From the NCBI RefSeq assembly GCF_024138145.1, contig NZ_CP099997.1:248001-312000 (forward strand): a stretch of DNA of 64,000 nucleotides. The letters run 5' to 3'. Shown here piece by piece: positions 7,489 to 20,819 of this stretch (position 1 is the stretch's first letter; every line of letters begins with the position of its first letter). The DNA is from Natronosalvus halobius. GTDB taxonomy: Archaea; Halobacteriota; Halobacteria; Halobacteriales; Natrialbaceae. A model generated the notes under the pieces. It did no database searches. It was not told the origin of the DNA and saw only the letters and a program-made list of their open reading frames with translations. Made by a program: the position numbers and the translations under genes.

Positions 7489-8783
7489 GTACCGATACCG
7501 GGAGCGACCAGCCGCTGGTGCGCGTCGAGGGGCTCCGCAAGTACTTCTACGAGCAAGATTCGTACATCGACCGTCTCTTCGGTCAGGAGCCCGTCGCCGT
7601 CCGCGCGGTCGACGACGTGGACTTCGACGTTCACCGCGGCGAGACGCTCGGTCTCGTCGGCGAATCCGGCTGCGGGAAGTCGACGACGGGAGAGACGCTG
7701 TTACACCTGCAAGAACCCACCGACGGCGTCGTCCAGTTCGAGGGCGAGAACGTCTTCGAACTCGAGGGTGACCGTCGCAACGAGTTCCGGCGGAACGCAC
7801 AGGTCGTCTTCCAGGATCCGTTCTCGAGCCTCGATCCGCGAATGACGATCGGAAGGACGATCCAGCAGCCACTCGCGGTCCACGACGTCGGTACTGCCGA
7901 GGAGCGCCGCGACCGGGCCCAGGAGTTGCTCGAGCGCGTCGGCCTGTCGGCCGACCAGATCGACCGCTATCCACACGAGTTTTCGGGCGGCCAGCGCCAG
8001 CGGATCGGCATCGCGCGGGCACTCGCCCTCGAACCTGAGTTCGTCGTCCTCGACGAACCGACCAGCGCACTCGACGTGAGCGTCCAGGCACAGGTCCTCA
8101 ATCTGCTCGAGGACCTCCAGGAGGAGTTCGGCCTCACGTACCTGCTCATCAGTCACGACCTCTCGGTCATCCGCCACATCTGTGACCGGGTTGCCGTTAT
8201 GTACCTGGGTGAAATCGTCGAAATCGGGCCGGTCGAGGAGATCTTCAGCACGCCGAAGCACCCCTACACGCGGGCGCTCCTCGAGAGCGTCCCGAGGGCG
8301 TCGACCGACGAGCGCGATCGCGACCGCAACACGCTATCCGGTGACGTTCCCTCGCCGCGGGACCCGCCGAGTGGCTGTCGGTTCCGGACGCGGTGCCCGG
8401 AGGTGATCCCGCCCGAAGACGTCGCAATCGAGCAAGCCACCTACCGGGAGATCATGACCCTCAGGGAACTGGTCGAACGGGAGAATATCAGTCTCGAAGT
8501 CGTCAGCGACCACGCCGAGATGACCGACGAGGGAATCGACGTCGACCCTGCCGAGGTGGACGCCTTCGTCGCGGACCTGAAGGCCCACGTTTTCGACACA
8601 CCGTTGCCGCCGGAACACGATGCGATAGTCGAGGAAGCGCTGGTACCGCTCGCCCACGAGAACTGGGACGAATCCGCGATGCGGTTGCGCGACGCTTACG
8701 AGAGCATCTGCGAACTCGAAAATCCGGAGTTGGGGAACGAAGCCCATCCCGTCGCCTGTCACCTCTACGCCGACGATCGCTGA
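7485..8783 (+). CDS. Peptide ABC transporter ATP-binding protein, DppF type
   Basis: A 432-residue second ATPase of the importer. Walker A is GESGCGKST (59-67), the Q-loop [13 protein letters not shown], the signature [12 protein letters not shown] and Walker [10 protein letters not shown]. The Opp C-terminal cysteine pair is in [10 protein letters not shown]. About 130 residues follow it, acidic and without an obvious domain, a common haloarchaeal extension. It should heterodimerise with the DppD-type protein to drive uptake. It is the last gene of the operon; the start overlaps the preceding stop (ATGA). Confidence 0.9.
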
Positions 8784-8883
8784 CGTTCGACGAATCTGGA
8801 TTTTCCTGGGAAATGGCGGATTACTCCTCCAAGCGCCTCGTTGCGTGCGAGATGCTTTTGCGCGTTTCTCGCGTATCGGTGCT

Positions 8884-9042
8884 ATGGCGAGCAAAGCACC
8901 GATCTACTGTGAACTGTGTAAAGAATCGATCGACACCGGCGAGAGCCTCGAACATCACTTGCTGAACGAACACCGACCGCCCGAACTGGCCGAGCGGCTT
9001 GCGTCCCAGTGGGAATCTGAAGAACTCGGCGATCCTTCCTGA
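8884..9042 (+). CDS. Small C2H2-like zinc-finger protein, 52 aa
   Basis: A 52-residue protein beginning MASKAPIYCELCKESIDTG. The pattern C-x2-C followed by HHLLNEH gives a single C2H2-type zinc site, the typical layout of haloarchaeal small zinc-finger proteins. The rest is an acidic helix (ELAERLASQWESEEL). I used the ATG at 8884; an in-frame ATG 39 bases upstream would add an unrelated basic leader. It is co-directional with the transporter but separated by 100 bp, so probably independent. Its function is unknown; regulation of transcription or a protein contact is possible. Confidence 0.7.
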   Translation: MASKAPIYCELCKESIDTGESLEHHLLNEHRPPELAERLASQWESEELGDPS

Positions 9043-9446
9043 CGCATCTGTGTTCTGTGTGCTGTGCTCTCTGCCTCTGCTCCGTGCTCCGCTGAGACCA
9101 CCCGAGAAGCCGTTTTAGTACGTCAAACACACTGAACGCGGGGGTGTCCTGGATGCTCGGACTCCGTCCGATGCTCGCCGTTTTCTGCATTTCGTAATGG
9201 ATCAGTTCGACCGTCTCGTCGTCCGATCGGCGTTCGTACCGTTTAGGAGCCACCGGTTTTCGACTCGAGGCCGATATCGGCAATTACACCGTTCTCTGAC
9301 GACAGTAACGACGATTGTGGGTTCGTAATCGAGGTTACTAGTACACTCGACATCCGTAATCAAAATTATCAGCGTGTTCGGTTTAGATAACAAAGTAGAG
9401 TATTCCCGAGAGGGTGAGTTGGCGGGCTATCCGCCAGGATGAAAAA
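9043..9446 (+). other. Intergenic region before the repeat-protein gene
   Basis: About 400 bp without a convincing gene. GC falls sharply over 9280-9410, where AT-rich patches (for example tcaaaattatc and tttagataac) are likely to contain the promoter of the large repeat protein. I see no tRNA, clear hairpin or recognisable operator. Confidence 0.5.
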
Positions 9447-12400
9447 ATGTCAGGAAAGGACCGTTTCGTCGTAACTTTCGTCGCGCTACTCGTGGCGACC
9501 GGCATGCTCTTTGCCGGGAGCGCGATGGCGCTAGGGGCGACATCGGCATCGAATGCAACGAATTGTGAACAAGCGGAAGTAACGATCGTCAACGGGGCAC
9601 AAGATAGCTTTCAAGAAGCCGACGGCGACGAGAATTACCAGGACCAGGTCGCAACTGTAGACGGCGAGTTACTACAGAGTCAACTCGCGACCGGCGACAA
9701 CAACTGCCAGGAGGCGACCCAGGTTCTCTACTACCAGCAGAGCCAGGAGCAGTGGGCGTTGTTCGGTAACGACAACCAGCAGGTGGAAGACCAGGGTATC
9801 CTCGTTTTCTACACGCAGAATCAGTCCGTCGAGGGTGACGACAACGACCAGAGCGCCGAACAGCACGGAAACATCCAGCAGGACCAGATCCAGTACGTCA
9901 TCCTGGGTGTCGACAACCACCAGCTGAGCGCCCAGGAGGCAGCGCAGGTGCTCGTCCAATCGCAATCCGCCGAGGGTGACGACAACGACCAGAGCGCCGA
10001 ACAGAACGACAACAACGTCAGCCAGTTCCAGATCCAGCTTTCGATCGCTGGAAACGACAACGCCCAGGGCGCGAGTCAGACTGGCGTGCAGGTGCTCGAG
10101 CAATCCCAGACGGCCGAGGGTGACGACAACAACCAGGAAGCCGAGCAAAACGGCAACGACATCGGCCAACAGTCGGTTCAGTTGGTAATCTTCGGCAACG
10201 ACAACGAGCAAAATACCACCCAGGCTGCCGAGCAAATCTTCAGCCAGGACCAGACTGCCGAGGGTGACGACAACGACCAGGAAGCCGAGCAAAACGACAA
10301 CGACATCGACCAGCAGTCGGTCCAGCTCGTGCTCTTCGGTGACAACAACGATCAGGACGCCAGCCAGAGTGCGAGTCAGTCGCTACACCAAAGCCAGAGC
10401 GCGGAGGGTGACGACAACGACCAGAGCGCCGAGCAAAACGGCAACGACATCGACCAGCAGTCGGTCCAGCTCGTACTCTTCGGCGACGACAACGAGCAAT
10501 CGTCCGATCAGGACGGTGAACAGCACAGTAGCCAGACCCAGACGGCCGAGGGTGACGACAACGATCAGAAAGCCGAGAGCGAACAGGACATCGATCAGGA
10601 CGCTGAGCAGGAAGCGAGCGGCTACTATAACAACCAGGACGCTGAGCAGGAAGCCCAGCAGGAGGTCGAGCAGGAACAGGAGGTCGAGGACGGTAACCAC
10701 AACGAGCAGGAAGCCGAAGCCGATCAGGAGGCCGATCAGGAGGCCGACCAGCAGACGAGCGGCGTCGCCAACGACCAGGACGCCGACCAGGAGAGCGAAC
10801 AGGAGATCGAACAGGAGCAAGAAGTCGAGGACGGTAACCACAACGAACAGGAAGCCGAGGCCGACCAGAAATCTGAACAAGAAGTCGAGCAAGATTCCAG
10901 CGGTGCGCTGAACGATCAGGACGCCGACCAGGAATCTGAACAAGAAGTCGAACAGGAACAGGAAGTGGAGGACGGTAACCACAACGAGCAGGAAGCCGAG
11001 GCCGACCAGGAATCCGAGCAAGAAGTCGAGCAAGAGGCTGACGGCCTGGGCAACAACCAGGACGCCGACCAGGAGAGCGAACAGGAAATCGAGCAAGAAC
11101 AGGAAGTCGAGGACGGTAACCACAACGACCAGGAGGCCGAAGCCGACCAGGAATCAGAACAGGAAGTCGATCAGAACGCTGATGGAGATCTGAATAACCA
11201 GGAGGCTGACCAGGAGAGCGAACAGGAGATCGAACAGGAACAGGAGGTCGAGGACGGTAACCACAACGACCAGGAGGCCGAAGCCGACCAGGAATCTGAA
11301 CAGGAAGTCAAGCAAGATTCCAGCGGCGTCGCAAACAATCAGGAGGCCGACCAGGAGAGCGAACAGGAAATCGAGCAAGAGCAGGAAGTCGAAGACGGCA
11401 ACCACAACGACCAGGAAGCCGAAGCCGATCAGGAATCTGAACAAGAAGTCGAGCAAGATTCCAGCGGTGCGCTGAACGATCAGGAGGCTGACCAGGAGAG
11501 CGAACAGGAAATAGAGCAAGAGCAGGAAGTCGAAGACGGTAACCACAACGACCAGGAGGCCGAAGCCGACCAGGAATCCGAGCAAGAAGTCGAGCAAGAT
11601 TCCAGCGGTGCGCTGAACGATCAGGAGGCCGAACAGGAATCTGAACAAGAAGTCGAACAGGAACAGGAAGTGGAGGACGGTAACCACAACGAGCAAGAAG
11701 CCGAAGCCGATCAGGAATCTGAACAAGAAGTCGAGCAAGAGGCTGACGGCCTGGGCAACAACCAGGACGCCGACCAGGAGAGCGAACAGGAAATCGAGCA
11801 AGAACAGGAAGTCGAGGACGGTAACCACAACGACCAGGAAGCCGAGGCCGAACAGGAATCTGAACAGGAAATCGAGCAAGATTCCAGCGGCGTCGCCAAT
11901 AATCAGGACGCCGACCAGGAGAGCGAACAGGAGATCGAACAGGAACAGGAAGTCGAGGACGGTAACCACAACGAACAGGAGGCCGAAGCCGAACAGGAGG
12001 TCGAACAGGAGGTCGAACAGGACGCTAACGGTATCGCCAACGACCAGGAGGCCGAACAAGAAGCCGAGCAGGAAGCCGAACAGGAACAGGAAGCCGAAAA
12101 CGGTAACGACAACGACCAGGAGGCCGACCAGGAGAGCGAGGTCGAACAGGAGGCCGACCAAGAGGCGACCGGAACCTCGAACGACCAGACCGTCGAGCAG
12201 GACGCCGAAACCGACCAGAACCAGGAGCAGACGGTCGAGAACGGCGACGACAACGAACAGACTGCCGAACAGGATGTCGAGGTCGAGCAGAACGCCGACC
12301 AGGAGGCCACCGGCGATGGTAACGATCAGACCATCGAACAGGACGCGGACGTGACCCAGGACCAGGAACAGACTGTCGAGAACGGCGACGGTAACGTGCA

Positions 12401-12584
12401 GAACGCCGAACAAGATGCCACGATCGAACAGAACGCCGAACAGGACTCGGACGGCGGTGACACGGTGACCCAGACCGACGAGACCGAGGTCGACCAGACG
12501 CAAACTCAGCACGCGTCCGGCGACGACAATACGCAGTCCCAGTCCCAGTCGACCACGATCACGACCAGCCAGAGCGCCGCGTAA
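9447..12584 (+). CDS. Secreted Gln/Glu/Asn-rich protein of curlin-like tandem repeats
   Basis: A 1045-residue exported protein. A Sec-type signal (MSGKDRFVVTFVALLVATGM...AMALGA) supports the ATG at 9447. Nearly all the rest is one tandem array. A Gly-x-x-Asn-x-Gln-x-Ala/Ser pattern recurs every 23-24 residues, two per 47-48-residue unit, about 41 coils in total. In the first seven units the second coil is hydrophobic (QLVLFGDDN). The next ten are extremely acidic (EDGNHN...QEAEADQ). The last few are mixed, ending in a Ser/Thr/Gln tail. The spacing and the G-x2-N...Q layout recall curlin repeats of CsgA, which fold as a beta-solenoid. Lys and Arg are almost absent from the mature part. I infer a surface fibre or matrix protein; no family assignment is certain. 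Confidence 0.75.
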   Translation: MSGKDRFVVTFVALLVATGMLFAGSAMALGATSASNATNCEQAEVTIVNGAQDSFQEADGDENYQDQVATVDGELLQSQLATGDNNCQEATQVLYYQQSQEQWALFGNDNQQVEDQGILVFYTQNQSVEGDDNDQSAEQHGNIQQDQIQYVILGVDNHQLSAQEAAQVLVQSQSAEGDDNDQSAEQNDNNVSQFQIQLSIAGNDNAQGASQTGVQVLEQSQTAEGDDNNQEAEQNGNDIGQQSVQLVIFGNDNEQNTTQAAEQIFSQDQTAEGDDNDQEAEQNDNDIDQQSVQLVLFGDNNDQDASQSASQSLHQSQSAEGDDNDQSAEQNGNDIDQQSVQLVLFGDDNEQSSDQDGEQHSSQTQTAEGDDNDQKAESEQDIDQDAEQEASGYYNNQDAEQEAQQEVEQEQEVEDGNHNEQEAEADQEADQEADQQTSGVANDQDADQESEQEIEQEQEVEDGNHNEQEAEADQKSEQEVEQDSSGALNDQDADQESEQEVEQEQEVEDGNHNEQEAEADQESEQEVEQEADGLGNNQDADQESEQEIEQEQEVEDGNHNDQEAEADQESEQEVDQNADGDLNNQEADQESEQEIEQEQEVEDGNHNDQEAEADQESEQEVKQDSSGVANNQEADQESEQEIEQEQEVEDGNHNDQEAEADQESEQEVEQDSSGALNDQEADQESEQEIEQEQEVEDGNHNDQEAEADQESEQEVEQDSSGALNDQEAEQESEQEVEQEQEVEDGNHNEQEAEADQESEQEVEQEADGLGNNQDADQESEQEIEQEQEVEDGNHNDQEAEAEQESEQEIEQDSSGVANNQDADQESEQEIEQEQEVEDGNHNEQEAEAEQEVEQEVEQDANGIANDQEAEQEAEQEAEQEQEAENGNDNDQEADQESEVEQEADQEATGTSNDQTVEQDAETDQNQEQTVENGDDNEQTAEQDVEVEQNADQEATGDGNDQTIEQDADVTQDQEQTVENGDGNVQNAEQDATIEQNAEQDSDGGDTVTQTDETEVDQTQTQHASGDDNTQSQSQSTTITTSQSAA
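9693..12521 (+). repeat. Coding tandem repeat array, 141/144-bp unit
   Basis: Gly codons of the G-x-x-N anchor lie at 9693, 9834, 9975, 10119, 10263, 10407, 10551, 10692 and then every 141 bp to 12384, with a last anchor at 12519. From 10692 to 11961 ten copies encoding DGNHN follow each other at exactly 141 bp with no net insertion or deletion (nine steps, 1269 bp). The earlier copies use 141 or 144 bp. Half-units start 69 or 72 bp after each anchor. The unit is coding and in frame throughout, so this is protein repeat expansion and not a CRISPR or satellite. Confidence 0.9.
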
Positions 12585-12970: not shown

Positions 12971-14161
12971 CTACGTGTGACTGGCCTTCGTTTGCTTCTT
13001 GTAATCCGGCACACACTCGCTCTCGTCCTCGTTTTCCTCGTCGCCACCGCTTTCGTCGTCTCCGTCGCTTTCGTCCTCGTTTTGATTGTCGTCGCTTTCG
13101 TCTTCGTCACTCCCGTCCTCGTCACTTTCATCTCCATCACTTTCGTCACCGTCGCTCGTGCTCGTATACTCCTCCTGCGTACTGATCTGTACACTCTCCT
13201 GGATGACGTAGATCGCACTCTCGTTCGCCTCGACGACGATATCCACGTCCTGGTCGTTCAGTTGGGAACTCTCCTGTATCACGTCGGCCGTCGCACCCGG
13301 ACCTGCCGCGGCAGCCATCGCTTCTTGCTCGCTGACCTGGACGTTGATCTGGGCGACGACGACCGCCGCCTCCGAGGCGGTGACGTTCACCGAGGCGAAC
13401 TGCGTCGCGCGCTGGTCGTTCTCCTGGTGGACGACCGCCGACGCGTTCTCGCCAGCCGCCGCCGCGTAGCCAGTCTGGTCGTTCTCCTGGACGTTCAGTT
13501 GGACGACGAGGACTGCTGCCCGCTCGGCGTCGACCGTGACCGTCGCGTTCTGGTCCGTCGTCTGGCTGTTCTCCTGATAGACCTCTGCGCGGCTATCGGG
13601 TCCAGTCGACGTCGACTCACCGTCCTGTTCGGTCCGATCTCGGGTGACTTGCTCCACCGTCACGACCGTCCCGTGATCAGTCGTGATCGTCGCTTCACCG
13701 TCGTCGTCGACGGCGAGCGTTTCGCCGTTCGCGGTCGACGCCGTCACGTCGTTCGTGAAGTCCGCGAGTGTCGCCTCAACGGTGTCGTCCGCCGACTCCA
13801 GCAACGTCCCCCACACGAGTTCGGCATCCTCGTCTTCCAGGGCGTGTACCCGCGTGTTAGCTTCCCCGTCGGTCGTACTCGATTCGATGACGACCGCCTC
13901 GAGTTCGTCGGTGTCGAACGCGGCAAGTGCCTCCTCGATCGACATCGTTCCGTCTTCGGTTACGACCGTGGCCGAGTCGCTGCCGTTTCCGGTGTTCGCG
14001 TGTGACTGATCGGGTTCGAACGTCGTCGCCTCGAGTGGTGTCTGGGTCTCTTCCGTGACGGTACCTGTCGCTGCTAGCGATGCGCCTGCTGGAACTGCCA
14101 TGCCAATCACGACTATGACAACTGCGAGTAGTGTGATCGGGACGGGAGTGTGCTTTTGCAT
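12971..14161 (-). CDS. Secreted protein with three 50-residue Ala/Gln repeats
   Basis: A 396-residue exported protein. The ATG at 14161 gives a clean Sec-type signal (MQKHTPVPITLLAVVIVVIG...AGASLAA); an upstream ATG would add 44 unrelated residues. Residues about 20-215 form an acidic globular part. Three tandem repeats with exactly 50-residue spacing follow, starting GPDSRAEVYQENSQ, GENASAVVHQENDQ and GPGATADVIQESSQ. Each fits Gly-x4-Ala-x3-Gln, which overlaps the curlin repeat consensus, and each contains a second VVQLNVQ-type strand. The C-terminus is a long Asp/Ser/Glu tail ending in a single Cys. It is convergent to the large repeat protein. The two may contribute to the same surface structure; that is inference. 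Confidence 0.7.
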   Translation of the reverse strand: MQKHTPVPITLLAVVIVVIGMAVPAGASLAATGTVTEETQTPLEATTFEPDQSHANTGNGSDSATVVTEDGTMSIEEALAAFDTDELEAVVIESSTTDGEANTRVHALEDEDAELVWGTLLESADDTVEATLADFTNDVTASTANGETLAVDDDGEATITTDHGTVVTVEQVTRDRTEQDGESTSTGPDSRAEVYQENSQTTDQNATVTVDAERAAVLVVQLNVQENDQTGYAAAAGENASAVVHQENDQRATQFASVNVTASEAAVVVAQINVQVSEQEAMAAAAGPGATADVIQESSQLNDQDVDIVVEANESAIYVIQESVQISTQEEYTSTSDGDESDGDESDEDGSDEDESDDNQNEDESDGDDESGGDEENEDESECVPDYKKQTKASHT

Positions 14162-14773: not shown

Positions 14774-15361
14774 ATGGGTCGAGCGAATGCCGTACGCATG
14801 AACGGGAATAGCCAACTGCTCGAGGACCTCTCCGAAGACATTCGGGAGATGACGAGGAATATCCGGAGGCGATACGTCCTGTATTATCTGTCAGAGCGGG
14901 ACGGTGCGGTGGACCTCTTCGACCTCGTCGAACGCGTCGCGAGTTGGGAATCCGGATGCGAACCCGACCAACTCGACAGACGAACCGTCAAATCGGTCTA
15001 CAGTTCGCTCTATCAATCGCACCTCCCGTTGCTCGAAGAGCGAGACCTCATCTCGTTCGATCGTCAACGAAAGATCGTCTCGCCGACGGACCGGACGGAA
15101 CGCGTCACAATCGAGTTTCGGACGGACCCATCCCCCCTCGACCGCCAGTCGACGGCCGCAATCGTTGGGATTTCGATCGCAGCCGCGTCGGTGAGCCTCT
15201 GGGGGGGACAACTCTTCCCGACCGAGATCGGTGGTCTCGTGGGAATAACCCTGCTCGCAGTCGTGCTCGTCTCGAGCTATGGTGTGTATCGATCCGCTCG
15301 TCGATCGACGACGTCGATTGCGCCGGATTTCACGCTTACCGTCGACGACACGCGTCGCTAA
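14774..15361 (+). CDS. Winged-helix (DUF7344-type) protein with two C-terminal TM helices
   Basis: A 195-residue protein. Residues about 15-115 form the haloarchaeal DUF7344-type winged helix (RRRYVLYYLSERDGAVDLFDLVERVA ... VYSSLYQSHLPLLEERDLISFD...IVSPT). Two hydrophobic segments follow (STAAIVGISIAAASVSLW and IGGLVGITLLAVVLVSSYGVY). This makes it a membrane-tethered putative DNA-binding regulator. The start is either ATG 14774 or ATG 14798; a TATA-like ctttaag at 14755 fits both. Position next to the secreted repeat genes suggests it could control them, but nothing in the sequence proves this. Confidence 0.7.
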   Translation: MGRANAVRMNGNSQLLEDLSEDIREMTRNIRRRYVLYYLSERDGAVDLFDLVERVASWESGCEPDQLDRRTVKSVYSSLYQSHLPLLEERDLISFDRQRKIVSPTDRTERVTIEFRTDPSPLDRQSTAAIVGISIAAASVSLWGGQLFPTEIGGLVGITLLAVVLVSSYGVYRSARRSTTSIAPDFTLTVDDTRR

Positions 15362-15641: not shown

Positions 15642-18551
15642 TCAAAAATCGTCCACACTCGCGTCCGTCTCACCGTCTGATCTGGAGTCGGGTACCGAGG
15701 AGCGCAGATCGTACTCGTCGAACTCGTCGATATCCTCGATCAGGACGTTCTCCGTTGCCGCCCCTTCTACTCGTTGCTCCACCAGCTCGCTGTGAGCAGC
15801 CTGCACTTCCTCGACGGATAGTCCAAGCTCCAGAAACTCGAGGATCACCCCATCGAGTTCGTCCTGGGCACCGTCGACCCCTCGGACTAACTTTTCTCCG
15901 GCCTGCACAATCCGCTCCAGTTGCGACTCGGACATCAATTCCGGGCTCGGAACCGGAACCGACGAAACTTCGTACGTGAGTAACTGAAGCACCCCTCCTC
16001 CCTCGTGTCGTCCCCACAGTTCGAGCAGTACCTTGTACACCGTCGAGTGGAGAATGTAGGGGAGAACCTCGTCGCACTCGGTTATATCGACGCACTGGAT
16101 CGCATTCGTCGGCGCGTACCCGCCGGCGTTATCGACCGTGAACACCCGTTCGTTGTAGAACACGGGATGTAAGACGTCTGGGACGAGCAGGTCTCCCAGG
16201 TTGAACCAGGGCGTGTGCTGGGATACGGTGTGTCCATCGGGGACGCCCCCTTCTTCTCCGTACTCGAGATATCTGACCGTCGGCTCGTGCCCGTCGTTGC
16301 GCAACTCGTTCTTAACCGCTTCTGCTAGCTCGCTCGTCGAGCCCACTCCGTCCTGGCGTGACTCGACAGTATCGACGTACGCTCCAAAATCGAGAAGGTA
16401 CTGATCCGTATCCGCCACACGATACGATTCCAGCTCTCGAATCGATCGAATCGCTGGCTGTAAGAACCGTTCGTCAATACCCCACTGTGTGACGTCCTGC
16501 TCGTCGAGCAAGAAAAATTCGTTGTTGCCCGTCTTGTTGCCGAACGCCACGTCTGCATACCTATCCAGCCGCTGCATCTTTTCACTGTGGACGAGCGGAA
16601 TAAACGGGCTCGGGCCGTACAGGTAGTAGCCGATCTTTCGTCCCCCCTGTCTCTCCAGGCGGTCCTGAGGGAGACTGACGACTCGATACGCTTCGTTCGT
16701 CTCGATTCCAAACGCCTTCCCGTCGGGGACCGACCGTCGAGTGCCCGCAATCGACGAAAGGTCGTCCGGTGACAGCCGCTCTTTCACCCTGATAAAGTCG
16801 GTAACCGTCTCCCGACGCTCCGCTTCGTCGGCACATCGTTCGGCGAACAACACCACCGTGTCGACGAGTGCAGTGAACGCTCTGTCAGAAAATCCGACGA
16901 TTGCGTGGACCTTCGCCTGATCGTACAGGAACTCCTGGAACGACTCGCCGTATTTCGTCGTCAGCCACTTCGTGGGGATAATGAATCCGAGGCGCCCCCC
17001 GTCTCGGAGGAACTGCAGCGCGTGGGAGACGAAGTAGACGTACGCGTCGGACCTGGTCGATAGTTTGTTCCGCCCGCTCGCGTATCGATTCGAGTTCTCC
17101 GCGCCGTACTTCTCCAGGTGAGAACGGAAATGGTCCCTGTCTGGATACAGGTTCTCCTGGCGGATGTACGGCGGGTTCGCGACTACGGCGTCGTATTTCC
17201 TCGACTCATCTCCCGTATCGTCTCCCCGGGACAGGCGCCTGTCCTCGGGAAACACTTCGAAGAAGGAATCGTTGACCGTGTGCAACTCGCTGGTTCCCTC
17301 CAGGACGGTTCGTGATGCGAGATTGAGTTCCGTGAGATGTAACGGGAATCGGTTGATGTCGATTGCGGTGATGTTGTCCAGGATCTCCTGGTGTGTTGCG
17401 GTGGGCGCTAGTTCTTGCATTCGGTGGTACGCTGCTACCGGGAACGTACCGCTTCCGGACGCCGGATCGAGGACTCGAGGGACGCCATCTCCCTGCGGTT
17501 GCAGCGCCCAGTTACAGATCGCTTCGGCGATATCTGGATGCGTGTAGAACTGCCCGAGGGACTTTCGTTCGCGTTCCGGGATCAGGTCCTCGTACAGTTC
17601 CCCTAACAGGTCCTCGTCGACGGTGGAGAGGTTCTTTGCCTCGATGCTCCCGAGCAGCGAACGCATGGCCGACCGCGTTTTCCCATTGTGTGGGTACGCG
17701 GCGAACAACGACGTACCGTCGTCGAACACGGGTTCGAAGTCGATTTCCGCCTGAACCTCTTCGAACTGCCGGGCTATTCCGTTTTTATTATCGGCAGTCG
17801 AGGCGCCTTCGACGAGTGACTCGAGCGGATACTCGCGTTTCGCCCGTTCCGGTTCGGGTGTCCGTTCTCGAACGACCTCGTAGAACAGGATTTGACTGGC
17901 GACCAGGTATGCGTACTGTTTGGCAGCGAGGGAGAACCGTTCGGACTCCGGGAGTGACGCGTAATCGTTCTCCTGGACCCACTCGTCGAACGTTTCGGCG
18001 AAATCGGGGTCGGTATCGTACGTTTCTCGAGCGAGGGCCCGGAGCGTCGGCCAGATCGAGTCGTGAAACGAGCGAAGTGGGCCGACAATTCGGTCGCGTG
18101 CGCTCTGTTGGGGAAGTTCACCGTGGGTCGTGAGGTACTGAACCGCGTGAAAGATCGTCGAGAGACGATCGGTTACCGACGGATCGTCGAAGTCGACGTC
18201 ACGCAAATCGAGATAGTAGTACGGAATCTCCGAGACCTCACACTGGTCCGTGTAGTGAAACAGGAAGCAGTCCCGAGAGTTACACGTCGCGAACTGGTCG
18301 ACGCCGGCCGTATCGGCGTCGTCTCGAGCCTGTGTAAGTACGTCGGTGTCGAGCGGATAGACGCAATCGCGCTCGACTGCGATAACCAGGCTCCCGCTGA
18401 CTTCGGATTCGACGACGATGTTTGCCTGTCTCCCCTCGGTCTTTTCCCCAAGGCGAACGGAACCGAACGGCGTTCGTTCGCGGTGGACGTACTCTCGCAA
18501 TCGCGCAAAGAGAATACGGTGGAACTCCGATTCGGATGGAGCGCCCGGCAT
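15642..18551 (-). CDS. Solitary N6-adenine DNA methyltransferase (Eco57I/type IIG-like)
   Basis: A 969-residue protein. The middle is an N6-adenine methyltransferase: FYTHPDIAEAICNWAL, motif I DPASGSGTF (about residue 363) and the catalytic motif NPPY (about 458), followed by FIIPTKWLTTKYGESF. It transfers methyl from S-adenosylmethionine to adenine in DNA. The C-terminal third (HSEKMQRLDRYADVAFGNKTGNNEFFL ... HTPWFNLGDLLVPDVLHPVF) is the target-recognition part seen in Eco57I-type enzymes. The N-terminal 95 residues resemble a PD-(D/E)xK nuclease domain in which the acidic and Lys residues look substituted. No separate endonuclease gene is adjacent. It may be a type IIG enzyme, or a methyltransferase that has lost cleavage. 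Confidence 0.85.
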   Translation of the reverse strand: MPGAPSESEFHRILFARLREYVHRERTPFGSVRLGEKTEGRQANIVVESEVSGSLVIAVERDCVYPLDTDVLTQARDDADTAGVDQFATCNSRDCFLFHYTDQCEVSEIPYYYLDLRDVDFDDPSVTDRLSTIFHAVQYLTTHGELPQQSARDRIVGPLRSFHDSIWPTLRALARETYDTDPDFAETFDEWVQENDYASLPESERFSLAAKQYAYLVASQILFYEVVRERTPEPERAKREYPLESLVEGASTADNKNGIARQFEEVQAEIDFEPVFDDGTSLFAAYPHNGKTRSAMRSLLGSIEAKNLSTVDEDLLGELYEDLIPERERKSLGQFYTHPDIAEAICNWALQPQGDGVPRVLDPASGSGTFPVAAYHRMQELAPTATHQEILDNITAIDINRFPLHLTELNLASRTVLEGTSELHTVNDSFFEVFPEDRRLSRGDDTGDESRKYDAVVANPPYIRQENLYPDRDHFRSHLEKYGAENSNRYASGRNKLSTRSDAYVYFVSHALQFLRDGGRLGFIIPTKWLTTKYGESFQEFLYDQAKVHAIVGFSDRAFTALVDTVVLFAERCADEAERRETVTDFIRVKERLSPDDLSSIAGTRRSVPDGKAFGIETNEAYRVVSLPQDRLERQGGRKIGYYLYGPSPFIPLVHSEKMQRLDRYADVAFGNKTGNNEFFLLDEQDVTQWGIDERFLQPAIRSIRELESYRVADTDQYLLDFGAYVDTVESRQDGVGSTSELAEAVKNELRNDGHEPTVRYLEYGEEGGVPDGHTVSQHTPWFNLGDLLVPDVLHPVFYNERVFTVDNAGGYAPTNAIQCVDITECDEVLPYILHSTVYKVLLELWGRHEGGGVLQLLTYEVSSVPVPSPELMSESQLERIVQAGEKLVRGVDGAQDELDGVILEFLELGLSVEEVQAAHSELVEQRVEGAATENVLIEDIDEFDEYDLRSSVPDSRSDGETDASVDDF

Positions 18552-19808: not shown

Positions 19809-20819
19809 TTAGTTCGGTAGCTCCTGGCGGCGAACCGCCATCTTCTCTCGCTCGGTCCTCGCGTCGTAGTGCTGGTAGAGAACGTCGAGCGAGACGTCCA
19901 TGCGCTCGCTCACGACCTCAGGTGCAGCCTCCTCGTTCAGGTGGTAGGTGATCGCCCCGCGGCGGACGGCGTGTGGGGATCGCGCCGACGGACACCTGGC
20001 CGGAACCGCGTCACGGGCTCGAGCCTCGCACTCTTCGGGCGTCCGATCGTGGGGACACTCGGCGTAGGTACAGGGGTGCAGCGCTCGAAGGACCCACTTG
20101 TAGATGGTTCCACCGTGCGGGCGGGTACCGAGTCTGGTCGTAAACAGCGGCTGGCGGTCGTGATCGTCGATGACGACCTCGCGATCGGGATTCTTCGCGT
20201 AGTCGTCGAGGATCTGGAACCATTTCGGCCCGAGATACACCCAGCGGTTTCCGTCGTCACCGTTTTTCAGCGTCGTCCCGGTTTCCGGTCGGTGCTCGAC
20301 ACGAACCGCGTGGTCGTCGGCCTCGAGGTCGTCGACGTCGATCGACCGAACGGCGCTCCGACGCATTCCGGTTCGCCACAGTATTGCGAGTAACGCGTGG
20401 TCACGACTGGCGTAGTGATGCCGGTCGAAGTACTCGAGCGCCGCTTTTGCCCGGTGCGGGTCGAGAAACACGTCTTTCGACTCAGCTCCGTCGGGGAGTT
20501 CCGGTGCGTGTAGCTTCTCCGCCAATCCCTCCTCGACGGCCTCGATGTCGGCCCACCACCGGAGCGCCTGGCGGACGCTGCTTAGCTGCTTCTGGAGCGT
20601 GATCGCCGCGACGTCCGTACGTCGCCAGTCGACGAAATCCGCGAGATCGCGCCCACTGAGTTCGTTCAGGTTCCCGATCTCGCGTTCGTCACACCACTCG
20701 AGAAACACCGACAGGCGGTGTTTCGCGTTCTGATACGTCGTTTTCCGAACGCCTGGTTCGTGGTGCCGGAGGAAACGCTGCACGCCCTCCTCCGGTCCGA
20801 GCGGCTCGAGGTCGCTCAC
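19809..20819 (-). CDS. int: Tyrosine integrase of the provirus
   Basis: A 336-residue tyrosine recombinase with an N-terminal SAM-like core-binding domain (VFLEWCDEREIGNLNELSGRDLADFVDW). The catalytic residues visible are Arg in LWRTGMRRSAV (about 152), His-x-x-Arg in SPHAVRRG (about 284) and the Tyr nucleophile in LDVLYQHYD (about 315). A Cys-rich insertion (CTYAECPHDRTPEEC...C) sits before the His motif. It should cut and join the tRNA-Ala attachment cores 60 bp downstream of its stop. The GTG start overlaps the stop of the preceding small gene by four bases (GTGA), indicating a coupled operon of four genes read leftward from 21499. Confidence 0.9.
   Translation of the reverse strand: MSDLEPLGPEEGVQRFLRHHEPGVRKTTYQNAKHRLSVFLEWCDEREIGNLNELSGRDLADFVDWRRTDVAAITLQKQLSSVRQALRWWADIEAVEEGLAEKLHAPELPDGAESKDVFLDPHRAKAALEYFDRHHYASRDHALLAILWRTGMRRSAVRSIDVDDLEADDHAVRVEHRPETGTTLKNGDDGNRWVYLGPKWFQILDDYAKNPDREVVIDDHDRQPLFTTRLGTRPHGGTIYKWVLRALHPCTYAECPHDRTPEECEARARDAVPARCPSARSPHAVRRGAITYHLNEEAAPEVVSERMDVSLDVLYQHYDARTEREKMAVRRQELPN

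Follow-up and report, generated by a model that had tools for sequence, protein, structure and literature searches.

In the 64,000-nucleotide stretch of Natronosalvus halobius DNA analysed here (the window), we found a gene for a highly acidic repeat protein that is part of a patchily distributed haloarchaeal gene module, new in this work. This conserved module was absent from the original prediction and is the strongest support for the reading that we prefer, in which a secreted subunit forms wide two-sheet rungs that build an extracellular amyloid-like fibre, with the neighbouring gene product as anchor or nucleator. We put the chance that this reading is correct at about even. A more far-reaching version is held only tentatively: a new archaeal fibre system that arose independently of curli, with a double-width, acid-coated polar-zipper solenoid, assembly in high salt only, a dedicated surface nucleator or anchor whose Gln ladder matches that of the fibre, and a regulator belonging to the system. 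Haloarchaeal biofilms stain for amyloid, and the Haloferax candidate gene HVO_1403, the only one named in the two reports, is unconfirmed (PMC4180959, PMC12520557). The module adds a concrete and testable gene set. If the fibre reading is true, archaea would have a curli-like system outside the bacterial curlin family, convergent with curli and operating in cells that have no outer membrane, and an amyloid-like zipper made salt-proof by placing every charge outside.

The candidate fibre protein and its repeats

The reading frame starts with ATG at 9447, its stop codon ends at 12584 (+ strand), and the predicted protein has 1045 aa (Table 1). A script counted exactly 41 GxxNxQ anchors. They are spaced by 23 or 24 residues (23 or 25 in the N-terminal part), and the single exception is one interval of 45 close to the C-terminus. 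The composition is 19.3% E, 19.1% Q and 12.2% D (31% Glu plus Asp) with 0.5% K plus R. Autocorrelation at a lag of 47-48 reached 0.45 in the N-terminal part and 0.82 in the middle, far above the 0.15-0.21 of shuffled sequences (mean maximum over all lags). A Sec-type signal was recognized by eye (MSGKDRFVVTFVALLVATGMLFAGSAMA, followed by LG). The original prediction had described a secreted acidic protein with 41 such anchors, hydrophobic N-terminal units, then roughly ten very acidic units, and hardly any Lys or Arg; all of these features were confirmed. The Cys pair near the N-terminus is possibly a disulphide-locked cap, and the small inverted repeat just 5' of the start codon is a putative leader hairpin. 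Three homologues (L061:11360-11385, L062:11090-11118 and L064:10920-10949) have a short APxxL/F tail at the end, after the acidic stretch (AMVAPVAL, VMTAPPLGF and SLIAPLAL), which is unlike the TTSQSAA ends and is possibly a sorting or anchoring signal.

Table 1. Coordinates of the fibre gene, its parts and the neighbouring genes in the window.
Feature	Position	Strand	Basis
Small inverted repeat TGGCGG-GCTAT-CCGCCA, fibre gene leader	9420..9436	+	Kept in two congeners, loop and stem end slightly changed
Fibre protein candidate, 41 GxxNxQ anchors	9447..12584	+	Reading frame, anchor count, homologues
Sec-type signal peptide, cleavage after A28	9447..9530	+	By eye; intact homologues inspected have similar hydrophobic N-termini
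Cys pair C40/C87, 47 residues (one repeat pair) apart	9564..9707	+	Spacing 46-50 in 9/10 homologues listed; missing in L021
Conserved N-module, residues 60-391, hydrophobic halves (LVLF type)	9624..10619	+	60-66% identity to two other families
Acidic array, residues 392-885	10620..12101	+	Acid fraction 0.00 on one face, 0.94 on the other
C-terminal halves and TTITTSQSAA end	12102..12581	+	Sequence, face analysis
Window's partner candidate, secreted: N-domain, three 50-aa repeats with [N/S]xQxxxQ ladders, acidic tail	12971..14161	-	Convergent to fibre gene
Gln-ladder repeat domain of window's partner	13151..13651	-	Sequence
DUF7344 (PF24035) protein, possible regulator	14774..15361	+	PF24035 E 8.9e-24

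Two faces and the size of the rung

Residues were assigned to two faces by their offset (odd or even) from each anchor Gly, and z values were calculated from within-half shuffles. In the acidic stretch (residues 392-885), Asp and Glu are found at 0% of the odd offsets and 94% of the even offsets (z -18.8). The odd face, uncharged and presumed inward, holds Gln/Asn and aliphatic residues (N/Q/A/S/V). Acid is excluded from the odd face in eight homologues too (fraction 0.00-0.05), and on their even face it ranges from 0.29 to 0.96. Such period-two alternation fits a beta-strand and not a helix; the pattern is consistent with long beta-strands that carry a polar zipper inside and acid outside. 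When the N-module of the window was compared with homologues of two other families, invariant positions came to 67% on the odd (inward) face and 30% on the even (outward) face; for offsets 3-9, the first strand, the counts were 41/52 inward vs 5/39 outward. The uncharged face is conserved between families and the acidic face is not. Both the N-module (dN 0.046-0.047, dS 0.24-0.31) and the neighbouring protein (dN 0.029-0.045, dS 0.22-0.29) are under purifying selection. Three features expected of an amyloid-like protein were found: a secretion signal (judged by eye), two-faced strands and conserved inward residues.

On the uncharged face of the acidic array, halves two apart have an identity of 0.86 and adjacent halves one of 0.27. 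Gly and Pro, counted in 236 halves of 23-24 residues, are almost confined to the anchor G, and their frequency stays within 0-9% throughout offsets 3-22. Indels cluster just before the anchor Gly, near the arcs, with a minor site near offset 11. The scarcity of Gly/Pro between anchors, the identity values and the indel sites together indicate that the stacking repeat is probably the 47-48-residue pair, composed of two strands of ~19 residues and two GxxN arcs, which gives ~20 rungs. An additional break, at NGND, may be present in the 25-residue halves of the N-module. The spacing of 23-24 and the pairing into 47-48 residues had both been predicted correctly, but the real repeat is the pair and not the half; what had been called 41 coils are 41 anchors in probably ~20 double-width rungs.

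Structure prediction

AF2 was run on residues 37-510 (474 residues) with an alignment of three sequences. The best model is all-beta with a pLDDT of 73.9, and the five models range from that value down to 31.5. A beta-solenoid, as had been proposed, is predicted for the fibre protein with moderate confidence. AF2 over-predicts solenoids for regular repeats, and PF07012, with its diverged repeats, is predicted consistently by four methods (PMC11795689). Because of this bias toward beta-solenoids we count the fibre model as supporting evidence only. A Foldseek search with the model found nothing significant (best E 0.53). VIA re-alignment of the PDB chains from that search ranked Pontibacter curli CsgA (8c50_A) first, at Z 19.9 over 223 aligned residues (rmsd 8.7 A, 18% identity) and level with SufD beta-helices (Z 19.1 to 16), with the handedness of the AF2 model not visible. 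The CsgA alignment paired a 252-residue curlin range with all 474 model residues. For the repeat domain of the window's partner, AF2 on the single sequence without alignment was uninformative (pLDDT 44.8).

Proposed assembly and alternative explanations

For the fold, polymerisation, anchoring and regulation we infer the following scheme. The fibre gene product would be exported by Sec as a secreted fibre subunit, and in high salt the chain would fold into a flat two-sheet beta-solenoid, in which GxxN arcs connect the two ~19-residue strands of each 47-48-residue rung. A polar zipper between the sheets would be formed by the uncharged face (N, Q, A, S, I/V); the acidic face would be turned toward the brine, with the high salt screening the outside charge. 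Since the rungs would be open-ended, subunits could add end to end, as in curli. The resulting amyloid-like fibre outside the cell may serve in cell-cell or surface attachment. The neighbouring secreted Gln-ladder protein (12971-14161 in the window, the FG-GAP protein in the three other families) would anchor or nucleate the fibre, and the DUF7344 protein may regulate the module. A secreted, salt-adapted amyloid or beta-solenoid fibre, as first proposed, is the best reading of the sequence and is supported in part. Acidic repeats rich in E and Q are often disordered, which counts against it.

The same fold evidence would apply to a monomeric, non-polymerising beta-solenoid rod, for instance a surface decoration or the stalk of an adhesin. 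The single chain is long (820-1100 aa) and could itself be the stalk, and SufD and other non-fibre beta-helices fit the model about as well as CsgA. We consider such a rod rather unlikely: the C end of the fibre protein shows neither a cap nor a head domain, and the second secreted ladder protein is the most persistent feature of the module, which fits assembly better.

A disordered polyanionic coat or matrix polymer, similar to an acidic mucin and binding water and divalent cations, would have no need for acidic and uncharged residues to alternate perfectly over ~20 halves, nor for the conserved inward residues, the restriction of Gly/Pro to the arcs or the conserved Cys pair. It is unlikely on these grounds, although the mean of 31% Asp+Glu with hardly any Lys/Arg and the poor agreement among the AF2 models would suit it.

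A narrow curlin-type solenoid of 41 rungs, each of 23-24 residues with two arcs, was the geometry first supposed. It would explain the NGND-like break near offsets 10-13 and the curlin-like parity shift in the 25-residue halves of the N-module, and also the N3-Q9 spacing of the Gln ladder, which is the same in curlin, but it is quite improbable given the low Gly/Pro content between offsets 3 and 22, the acidic-array alternation unbroken over 19 residues, the identity peak at two halves instead of one and the setting of 252 curlin residues against the whole model.

Comparison with curli and other known systems

Judged by its sequence, the proposed fibre subunit is not a curlin, since Gln is missing before Gly at every anchor, PF07012 and profile similarity are lacking, and CsgG is absent. 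The PF07012 search found no match at E 10 in the fibre protein and none in the whole genome, with a positive E. coli control. No strict match to the minimal curlin repeat X6-Q-X-G-X2-N-X10 (PMC3521004) was present in the fibre protein: at its 41 anchors, Gln two before Gly occurs in 0/41, N at +3 in 41/41 and Q at +9 in 29/41. The hhalign comparison of the fibre repeat profile with the E. coli CsgA/CsgB repeats gave a probability of 0.5, with limited power for such short profiles. CsgG (PF03783) was absent from the genome of the window; to our knowledge, archaea do not have the outer membrane that CsgG serves. The claimed closeness to the curlin consensus is limited to G, N, the second Gln and the residue at two places after N, and fails at the Gln two before Gly. 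The term "curlin-like" is apt for the architecture and not for family membership.

Like CsgA/CsgB of curli, the fibre protein is a secreted repeat protein with a G-x-x-N arc, Asn/Gln ladders, alternating inward and outward residues and two half-repeats per unit, and the major protein adjoins a second secreted ladder protein. Its half-repeat shares with the curlin kernel (PMC10192328) the G-x-x-N arc, the Gln at +9 and the alternating ladder. It differs in length (23-25 residues vs 11), in its extreme acidity, in having no Gln two before Gly and in having Gln two after Asn in place of curlin's small or hydrophobic residue. The curlin fold is a left-handed two-sheet beta-solenoid with ~22-residue rungs.

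Bona fide PF07012 proteins above the curated cut-off were found in 5/392 haloarchaeal genomes, four belonging to a single genus of the window's family and one (G243) to another family. They carry a signal peptide and match with E ~1e-45 (L088:9051-9788 (-) and L089:9419-10462 (-), also L080 and L082). G243 has both a curlin-repeat protein of this kind and the fibre module. These proteins resemble the fibre protein in being secreted and repetitive with N/Q ladders in haloarchaeal hosts; they differ in their true curlin-repeat matches, 19-residue period, length (245-347 aa) and neighbours. One archaeal protein with regularly spaced curli-like repeats was mentioned by Dueholm et al. in 2012 (PMC3521004). 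A search of the open-access literature turned up no account of the haloarchaeal PF07012 proteins or of the protein mentioned in 2012 as an archaeal curli system. The original statement that no archaeal curli system is described needs to be qualified by the 2012 mention and by the five genomes above.

The MspA/SH sheath amyloid of Methanospirillum and Methanothrix is likewise an archaeal extracellular amyloid-like protein, but it forms cell-enclosing sheath rings, and library searches with the fibre protein gave no match to it. The FG-GAP (integrin alpha-like) propeller surface proteins (PF01839) correspond to the N-terminal part of the partner found in three families. That partner has in addition a Gln-ladder domain whose period is near that of the fibre, and the window's own partner is without FG-GAP.

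Distribution of fibre homologues

A profile of the fibre repeat was searched against 392 genomes sampled from the order. Homologues were found in 11 genomes (5/95 genera, four families). Three genomes of the window's genus carry the gene, and one of them (G112) has a second, diverged partner and fibre pair (L019:5462-6673 and 7995-10634, +) with a 181-aa frame between the two genes, which move or are duplicated together. G053 (L021) has a more remote relative that contains Gly-rich insertions. Two named records match, Halobacteria archaeon HArc-gm2 and Halostella pelagica DL-M4, the latter a culturable strain with the module. A same-phylum sample gave no match outside the genus, family and order already found, viral contigs searched with the N-module gave none, and the fibre protein had none in Pfam, NCBIfam, PHROGs or PDB sequences. 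In G336 (L066:8800-10700, -) several in-frame stops interrupt the fibre gene, which looks like a decaying gene; the adjoining FG-GAP partner is intact.

Neighbouring genes

A protein of 1210-1587 aa adjoins the fibre gene in all seven genomes of the other three families, with an opposite-strand gene in between in two loci. Four of these seven partners were scanned and all four have an FG-GAP propeller (PF01839, E 1e-20 to 1e-38). By sequence reading, all seven have a propeller-like N-terminus, an acidic linker, a Gln-ladder domain and an S/T/E-rich tail. Strong Gln lags of 2, 12 and 23 occur in most ladders, lag 23 being among the top values in 6/7 loci. A Cys pair 43-45 residues apart opens the ladder domain and echoes the fibre Cys pair (46-50 apart). 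The partner ladder was detected in 7/392 genomes, all of them fibre-positive, and in no other sampled genome. The nominal chance of this co-occurrence is 1.2e-12 with genomes treated as independent; in practice they represent three families.

In the window's genus, the 12971-14161 protein takes the place of the FG-GAP partner. Two congeners have it at 93-96% identity, and it is also conserved, at 53%, in the paralogous pair. Since hhalign detected no homology among the fibre protein, the FG-GAP partner ladder and the window's partner, the kinship of the ladders is one of resemblance only, and the two partners may be functional counterparts by inference only. Profile comparison likewise linked none of the three to curlin. 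Weak matches to the window's partner (G094, G115 and another site in G000) were rejected, as the large frames of L025/L026 are other proteins; for the weak match in L028, no large frame was found on the strand read.

The DUF7344 gene is close to the fibre gene in seven loci including the window; the f17 loci and the paralogues lack it. DUF7344 proteins are common in haloarchaea, so the link to the fibre module is suggestive. Close downstream of the module lie an Eco57I-type restriction-modification methylase (15642-18551, -) and a phage-type integrase (19809-20819, -), and the region beyond the module may be a mobile island.
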